Shown: positions 16,411-18,429 of the stretch, one piece after another
Layout of the letters: every line of letters starts with the position of its first letter
Position numbering within the stretch: the first letter of the stretch is position 1
Source: Halorussus pelagicus
GTDB lineage: Archaea; Halobacteriota; Halobacteria; Halobacteriales; Haladaptataceae
Direction of reading: 5' to 3'
Assembly (NCBI RefSeq): GCF_004087835.1
Contig: NZ_CP035119.1
Coordinates: 2,790,001-2,854,000 of the forward strand
DNA: 64,000 nt
Notes under the pieces: generated by a model
Seen by the model: the letters and a program-made list of their open reading frames with translations, nothing else
Databases searched by the model: none
Told to the model about the DNA's origin: nothing
Translations under genes and position numbers: made by a program

Positions 16411-16527
16411 CGTTCTCTCTTTCACTATCGTCTTTGATTAGATGGGGTTATATCAGACCGCGAAGTTTGGACCCATGCTTCAGTAGTAGCCACGAGAATG
16501 AATAAGACATTAATTAGAAGACTGTAT

Positions 16528-16806
16528 TTAAATACCTAATTTAATCATAATATAGGAGGATGCCAATGGTATAATTCCTACAAATAGAATTGTTAATAAC
16601 ACAGTAATGAATTCGGGCGCTTTGATTACAGAGTTTAAAAGCGTAATTATCCCCCAAACTCCAGTACCGACCAACAATACGACAATCGGATACCCAATTA
16701 TCGGACGACGAAACCCTTTGTCAAGTTCGCTCCGAACATCGGAAAGTGCGTCACGCATGTATGGTTTATCGTATATCCAGTCTATGTGAATTTCGATTTT
16801 ATTCAC
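16528..16806 (-). CDS. two-helix membrane protein (possible immunity partner)
   Basis: This 92-residue protein has a charged N-terminus (MNKIEIHIDWIYDKPYM) and two hydrophobic helices (about residues 38-60 and 67-90). Codons are much more AT-rich than neighbours. It lies 32 bases downstream of the Tat-exported protein gene on the same strand, so the two probably form one transcript. I recognise no family. A small membrane protein after an exported protein with a membrane-active-looking segment is a layout seen for immunity proteins, but that is inference. Confidence 0.7.
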   Translation of the reverse strand: MNKIEIHIDWIYDKPYMRDALSDVRSELDKGFRRPIIGYPIVVLLVGTGVWGIITLLNSVIKAPEFITVLLTILFVGIIPLASSYIMIKLGI

Positions 16807-16838
16807 TTTTCAAAATTACAAAATTAAGGCGAGTGGAT

Positions 16839-17822
16839 TTACGACGAGACTCTCACGGTCTCGCGGTAACCGTCATTCACTTGGACCCCGTTTTCAAGAT
16901 GGACTGCAGGTACATCAGGCGTGCCGTTGATAGTGAGTAGGTCGGTATCCTCATCCATCCAAACTCCACTGACGAGGAGCCTTGTACTCGGTGCACATTC
17001 CTCGAAGGCACACTTGTCAATATCACGAATTACCTGAGTGATGTTCGTCGTGTCTTTGAGGTATTTGATAGCGAATCCGACAATCGCTCCGGCAATTGTA
17101 CCAATAGCCCCTCCATAGGGACCACCGATTAGTAGACCCAGCGCGGCCCCAAGGACCGTAGTGAGCACCGTTTCGGTGAAGTCTCCCAGCACTTTCTCGT
17201 ACTCAACCGAGAAACCGAGCTGGTGGTGTGGTTGGCTGTTTACTGCAGCATCACAGTCTGTCCCTTTCGGACTTTCGATATAATACGCCCCTATCCTGTC
17301 GATCGAATCCTTGGTACCTGCAGAGATTTCCTCTAGAACATCTTCAAGGATGCTCTTAGCCTGAATTGTCACTCCGTCTGACTGGTTGCTTTTTGAGCTA
17401 GCAGCGTTTCGCAGCGGACCCCAAACAGGACTCTGTTCGGCAGTCGAAGAATCGGAGTTCACTGCCGTGCTGGAACTATTCACCTCTGCACTAAAGACTG
17501 ATTCACGGATGTCAGCAAGGACGTCTTCAGATATCTCGTGTACGTCAAGATCGTTGGCATCTAACTGTGCGATTTCGTTTGTCGACCCATCACTGGTCGG
17601 TACAGGAATGACTGCACCATCGATTTCACCGGTCTTCAAGTTCTGGGCAATGCAAGCAGAGTATTTTATTCCGCTTTCAACAACGGTGTCCACTTTCACG
17701 TCTAAGTTGCTCGCTTTCGTAGTTTTCTTGGCGGATGTCAGCCCGGAGAGTCCAGTTAGTCCCACAGTGGTACCACTCGCACGCATAAACTTCCTCCGGC
17801 TTATTTTACTCAACATGCACAT
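16839..17822 (-). CDS. Tat-exported protein with glycine-rich hydrophobic segment
   Basis: This 327-residue protein has a twin-arginine signal (SRRKFMRASGTTVGL, residues 8-22) and would be exported folded. After a mature N-terminal region and a Ser/Asn-rich linker (~112-150) comes a Gly/Ala-rich hydrophobic stretch at residues ~219-255 with repeated GxxxG-like spacing (LGAALGLLIGG, AIGTIAGAIVG). Cysteines are at 57, 190, 271 and 276. Codon use is AT-rich, suggesting transfer. Halocin precursors are Tat-exported and release a hydrophobic C-terminal peptide; the resemblance is architectural only. It could instead be an ordinary surface protein. The second ATG (residue 3) is an alternative start. 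Confidence 0.75.
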   Translation of the reverse strand: MCMLSKISRRKFMRASGTTVGLTGLSGLTSAKKTTKASNLDVKVDTVVESGIKYSACIAQNLKTGEIDGAVIPVPTSDGSTNEIAQLDANDLDVHEISEDVLADIRESVFSAEVNSSSTAVNSDSSTAEQSPVWGPLRNAASSKSNQSDGVTIQAKSILEDVLEEISAGTKDSIDRIGAYYIESPKGTDCDAAVNSQPHHQLGFSVEYEKVLGDFTETVLTTVLGAALGLLIGGPYGGAIGTIAGAIVGFAIKYLKDTTNITQVIRDIDKCAFEECAPSTRLLVSGVWMDEDTDLLTINGTPDVPAVHLENGVQVNDGYRETVRVSS

Positions 17823-18429
17823 GATTCAAAGTACTGTTGGTACAAAAAAGTTATTTAGAAAACATTAGCATAGAACAACGTCCAAATAATGCAGCATTAT
17901 TTAATATAGAAGAAAATAGATAGGTCTATTATAGCTCGCTAGATAGTCGACCTCTTCTCACGATGTCGATAGCTGCGAATACGAACCACCTATCGACGCT
18001 GGTGAGCGAATAACTATTCGACTAACTGAGAACAGAAGCCTGTCCAATTCAGTCGGGACTACCCTGAGGAACTTATTTTCCGGAGTTACTCGTGTGAGAT
18101 GATAATTAAAGAGTGCGCAAACGCCTATTTCTCTAAGTCTTTGCGGCAATCTCAGGGCACAGACTAACACGATGTGGCGACCCTCGTCACACGCTTTCGA
18201 CAGCGCATATCTCGGACCCGCTGGCTGCGGCAGTTGCCGAAACAGTTTGCTGTTGTAAGCCAAGTCGCAATCCCATTAGGAAATTTTTATAAAACACGTA
18301 ATTGTGTTTAATCATAATTATATTTAATGGATATGGGTGAGGATTTGAAAAGACAACATCTCGAGTTAGACCCTGCGTTCTGCCGCGGCCACCGCATCGC
18401 TTTTCGTCGTCGCCACCCTCGCCCCGAAC
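17823..18429. other. AT-rich intergenic region with an unrecognised degraded ORF
   Basis: This 600-base gap is far richer in AT than its surroundings. A 101-codon minus-strand frame at 17958-18263 (beginning MAYNSKLFRQLPQ) has mixed codon bias and no match I recognise; it could be a decayed gene, possibly a mobile-element remnant. A TATA-like taaataac at 17850-17860 on the minus strand probably drives the Tat gene. I see no terminal repeats. Confidence 0.4.

Follow-up and report, generated by a model that had tools for sequence, protein, structure and literature searches.

The question raised by this locus is whether two adjacent AT-rich genes of Halorussus pelagicus encode, as an earlier note proposed, a Tat-exported halocin and the membrane protein that protects its producer. 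The window, that is, the whole stretch of DNA analyzed, is 64,000 nucleotides long. Both open reading frames (ORFs) were found where the earlier note had placed them, on the minus strand at 16839-17822 and 16528-16806; the nested and antisense ORFs of the region were regarded as mechanical. The two genes and the segment carrying them are as follows.

16839 to 17822, minus strand: candidate toxin with a Tat-type signal, 327 aa (ORF; homologues 37 to 52% identical over their full length).
16528 to 16758, minus strand: candidate immunity protein, 76 aa, with an N-terminal helix and two membrane helices (AF2 model; homologues).
16411 to 18372, no strand: inserted AT-rich segment of ~1.96 kb, consisting of the pair alone and a leader of about 550 bp (absent from 17 congeners).

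The true start of the exported protein is probably the second methionine, at ATG 17816. The small gene can alternatively be annotated from GTG 16806, giving 92 aa, and alignment with relatives places its start at an internal ATG at 16758, which suggests a protein of 76 aa. The small gene does lie downstream of the Tat gene, as had been claimed, but the distance between them would be 80 nt with the start favored by the homologues rather than 32 bases.

The pair is a recent AT-rich insertion. The G+C content is 0.504 for the exported-protein gene and 0.376 for the small gene, compared to 0.633 for the window, and in seven other loci measured the pair had a G+C content of 0.42 to 0.50 compared to 0.53 to 0.66 for the flanks. 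When the region was searched at the DNA level within the genus, 17 out of 17 congeners had both flanks. In the five congeners for which the flank spacing was computed, it was 22 (congener G013), 82, 183, 246, and 340 bp, compared to about 1,960 bp here, and among 99 relatives the exported protein was detected at E 0.001 in the window's genome only. Because the flanks are present in every congener searched, the measured gaps are short, and the protein is absent from the relatives, the transferred look of these genes is best explained by recent insertion. No tRNA gene was found at the insertion site. A 12-bp AT-rich direct repeat, TTTAATCATAAT, is present at 16540-16551 and 18307-18318, near both ends of the insertion; it was considered as an insertion trace and set aside as probably due to chance, since it is AT-rich and one copy lies within the small gene.

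Further analysis of the exported protein distinguished four parts.

17715 to 17822, minus strand: Tat-type signal peptide region with SRRKF, residues about 1-36 (sequence; TIGR01409 below its cut-off; RR in most relatives).
17181 to 17372, minus strand: conserved pre-zipper domain, residues 151-214, with C190, H199, and G203 (alignments A1 and A5).
17058 to 17180, minus strand: hydrophobic segment rich in glycine at residues about 215-255, a candidate for membrane insertion (Gly-zipper match; hydropathy in relatives).
16842 to 17057, minus strand: C-terminal region, residues 256-327, with LKDT..T..RDID..SG.WMDED (alignments A1 and A5).

The N terminus, MCMLSKISRRKFMRASGTTVGLTGLSGLTSA, has the Tat-type signal that the earlier note described, with the SRRKF motif; the RR is conserved across most relatives in the profile A5 alignment, and both signal models scored under their cut-offs (14.7 bits against 16.7 for TIGR01409 and 8.3 bits against 22.7 for PF10518). 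The glycine-rich stretch, previously put at about residues 219-255, was recovered at about 214-255. Residues 214-254 matched the Pfam model Gly-zipper_YMGG (PF13441) at E 2.8e-5 with 24.2 bits, under the gathering cut-off of 28.9. This similarity is confined to the hydrophobic stretch, which is kept in most relatives. No curated Pfam or NCBIfam family reached its cut-off with the exported protein, and the sole solved-structure match was SlyB at E 0.04. For the pair, the PADLOC profiles gave nothing beyond a weak LeoB match (E 0.007) and the PHROGs profiles gave weak matches only. Thus, a known structural or enzymatic family, which the earlier note had named as evidence against its own reading, did not emerge at cut-off. 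The structure predicted for the exported protein from a four-sequence alignment had a mean pLDDT of 36 and was unusable, so the hairpin considered below is only guessed from hydropathy and from helices predicted with low confidence.

The same arrangement recurs across many haloarchaea, with fast-changing sequences. Searches of plasmids by tblastn found homologues on Haloferax alexandrinus pBNX82-3 (51%) and DL31 phalar01 (41%), as well as one on Halorubrum lacusprofundi pR1SE2 that is interrupted by an ISH3-type transposase gene. This pR1SE2 locus (L010:6004-7964) holds a truncated toxin relative, and no small gene is annotated next to it. Genomes searched with the protein and profile A1 contributed further homologues, in Halorubrum lipolyticum, Halorubrum sp. 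Atlit-26R, and Halobiforma haloterrestris, together with divergent members of the family. The 13-member profile A5 reached 42 of 391 genomes of the class, part of them through the signal peptide alone, and homology is less secure for its weakest recruits (E 1e-7 to 1e-11), which match mainly around the hydrophobic stretch. Shared across A5 are a Tat signal, the motif C...H...G, the hydrophobic stretch rich in glycine, and the motif T..xD.D ... SG. No relatives of the pair were found among viral contigs and phage records at the sensitivity used. A mobile, AT-rich, two-gene unit with a hydrophobic toxin-like segment could also be an intracellular toxin-antitoxin system for plasmid maintenance, in which a membrane-depolarizing toxin is countered by a membrane antitoxin. 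However, such a toxin would not need the RR Tat signal that most relatives keep, and at roughly 290 residues the mature protein would be large for the role, which makes this explanation very improbable.

The small protein had been described as a two-helix membrane protein, and the AF2 model of its 92-aa form (mean pLDDT, 68) agrees, with helices at residues 15-32, 35-61, and 65-90; the last two are long and make a plain helical hairpin, a generic fold, behind the N-terminal helix. Small proteins from the neighborhood of the window's subfamily share homology, with G38, Y85, K89, and G91 invariant in nine sequences, but their identity to the window's protein is only 14 to 37%. More distant pairs have small proteins with two to four helices that look unrelated in sequence, and within a set of seven pairs the small proteins are 11 to 59% identical. 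This variation bears on the idea that the exported protein is secreted for a purpose other than antagonism, with a ligand or enzyme function, and that the small gene encodes its dedicated membrane receptor or assembly factor. Although C190, H199, G203, and the acidic C-terminal motif could belong to a functional site, partners of that kind would not be expected to vary so far, and nothing but the glycine-zipper similarity links the protein to a family or a solved structure. We give this idea very little credence.

A toxin whose producer depends on an immunity protein is the reading that we prefer, and an intact gene for the exported protein is seldom found without a small membrane-protein gene. 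For the pairing count, loci were picked by homology to the exported protein alone, giving 26 distinct intact loci. A same-strand ORF for a small membrane protein (68 to 150 aa) lies directly downstream in 24 of them (the window, L008, L009, L023, L024, L015, L025, L080, L052, L034, L036, L037, L038, L040, L093, L095, L096, L098, L099, L101, L103, L104, L108, and L109), a count that includes L036 and L099, where one helix only exceeds the hydropathy threshold, L038, which has no recognizable Tat start, and L015, which has no standard start codon ahead of the Tat motif. Of the other two loci, L031 has a two-helix ORF that is convergent and 222 nt away, and L092 has no small membrane-protein gene. 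Many species carrying the Tat protein without the small gene would have spoken against the earlier note's pair; the loci instead show near-obligate linkage, the adjacent immunity-type gene being kept with its partner. Controls gave the same picture. The requirement was an ORF of 60 to 160 aa, with at least two predicted helices, no more than 150 nt away. In the window and eight loci, such an ORF accompanied 6 of 6 members of the family, compared to 0 of 144 for the other ORFs that are 200 aa or longer (Fisher p 7e-11), and in a second control it was 0 of 9 for ORFs from 8 distinct loci that match via the Tat signal only. A separate observation concerns L106:1489-2289, a Tat protein with a cysteine-rich hydrophobic C terminus that was likewise matched via its signal only. 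It is followed after 76 nt by a 70-aa two-helix ORF, and halocin models gave no match; we take this layout to resemble that of halocin C8.

Small genes that stand without an intact partner bear on what the pair does. First, relatives of the small protein are carried by the plasmids of Halobacterium GN101 and GSL-19 (L012:5998-6228 and L011:6001-6225, respectively). On the GN101 megaplasmid, profile A1 found no relative of the exported protein, and on the GSL-19 plasmid it matched a signal-peptide fragment only. Halobacterium GN101 is a producer of microhalocin R1. Second, a third copy of this orphan relative was found in genome G087. Third, in Halorubrum tebenquichense the small gene is intact and the adjoining exported-protein gene is degraded. 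Finally, in L054 (reverse complement, 1913-2473) a toxin relative with a frameshift precedes two small membrane genes that differ from each other (73 and 84 aa) and may form an immunity array. The orphans and the intact gene beside a degraded partner fit immunity better than a two-part machine. They therefore weigh against a module that serves mobile elements at the cell surface or in entry exclusion, in which a Tat-exported envelope protein, anchored by its glycine-rich segment, and its small partner would keep out incoming plasmids or viruses, or alter the envelope, and would kill no other cells. Carriage on plasmids and transfer would suit such a module, and a two-part complex would likewise give tight gene pairing. 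On the other hand, no viral contig or phage carrier was found at the sensitivity used, and PADLOC offered only its weak LeoB match. Taken together, we judge an entry-exclusion function to be unlikely.

For the immunity reading, the way in which the two proteins change was also analyzed. Across eight pairs, exported-protein identity correlates with small-protein identity (Mantel rho 0.64, p 0.0003), which is weak evidence for interaction because linked genes share ancestry and correlated divergence is expected; when the hydrophobic segment alone was set against the small protein for all pairs, the correlation was not significant (rho 0.24, p 0.10). When DL31 was compared with Halorubrum Atlit-26R, residues 215-255 had a dN of 0.27 and a dS of 0.29 (dN/dS about 0.9), compared to 0.05/0.32 and 0.04/0.29 for the conserved flanks of the segment (dN/dS 0.13 to 0.17). 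The C-terminal tail had a dN of 0.43 and a dS of 0.36, and the small protein had a dN of 0.25 and a dS of 0.51, so that it and the segment change at about the same pace. Amino acid change was greater in the segment than in the flanks in all three comparisons within the DL31/Halorubrum clade (Fisher p 2.4e-5 or less). Between the window and Haloferax, the segment was no faster than the flanks (p 0.57). A fast segment would fit a specificity-determining part, for the DL31/Halorubrum clade only, and relaxed constraint on a membrane helix, which would equally raise the dN/dS of the segment, fits as well.

Considering the pairing, the orphans, the plasmids, and the change in the segment, the cassette probably encodes a halocin-like protein bacteriocin and its own immunity protein, with killing and protection as the predicted activities. 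The 327-aa protein, judging from its signal, would be exported folded via the Tat pathway. Once outside, its glycine-rich segment, likely as a helical hairpin, would enter a related haloarchaeon's membrane and depolarize or permeabilize it. In the producer, the two-helix membrane protein would bind or block the inserted segment, resulting in self-protection. Proteolytic activation akin to that of halocin H4 may also be involved. More tentatively, and with somewhat less than even confidence, the pair may belong to a large, polymorphic superfamily of haloarchaeal bacteriocins, Tat-exported toxins that put a glycine-rich hairpin into target membranes, each with its own two- to four-helix immunity protein that recognizes the hairpin; orphan immunity genes would spread by plasmid as a defense. 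If these readings are true, a widespread and variable pair would make archaeal antagonism genetically tractable, help to predict from genome sequence who kills whom, and make the specificity of archaeal toxin and immunity directly testable with two small genes. The archaeal toxin and halocin survey of Makarova et al. (2019, mBio) may already list relatives of the pair as candidates.

To our knowledge, a gene has been assigned to few halocins, and C8 is the one whose immunity has been studied. Halocin H4 (HFX_5264, Haloferax mediterranei) has about 359 aa, a Tat signal, and a hydrophobic stretch in its center, and it and the window's protein are both haloarchaeal exported-type proteins of similar size. 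Cleavage of H4 by the halolysin HlyR4 is reported to yield an active C-terminal antimicrobial fragment (PMC12893001). Alignment of the exported protein with an approximate H4 sequence gave an hhalign probability of 0.1, a lead rather than a test, and the same approximate query had no match in the plasmids or the Haloferacaceae genomes. H4 is not known to have a dedicated immunity gene. The precursor of halocin C8 is Tat-exported. It is similar to the present case in that a haloarchaeal precursor has antimicrobial and immunity functions linked, but in C8 (HalC8/HalI) a single gene encodes both the halocin and the immunity protein (PMC3831642), whereas here a separate immunity candidate gene is present in 24 of 26 loci. 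No halocin model appeared among the NCBIfam and Pfam matches, which bears on C8 only as far as these libraries include a C8 model. HmHapP (HFX_0892) is also described as a haloarchaeal secreted antimicrobial precursor, with a protease-dependent, N-terminal active fragment and no immunity partner known from that description (PMC12893001). Two bacterial systems are similar in architecture. EsxX/ExiCD of Staphylococcus combines a glycine-zipper toxin with membrane immunity and has orphan immunity genes in nonproducers (PMC12744356), and CdzC/CdzD-CdzI of Caulobacter combines a glycine-zipper toxin with a membrane immunity protein (PMC5380434). Like the pair, they have a glycine-zipper segment and polytopic membrane immunity; they differ in using type VII or type I secretion, compared to the predicted Tat-type export of the haloarchaeal pair. 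Of the earlier proposal, the toxin-immunity reading is well supported as a prediction, and membership of a named halocin family is not supported: the pair is best described as one that would work like a halocin and its immunity protein, rather than as a member of the H4 or C8 family.
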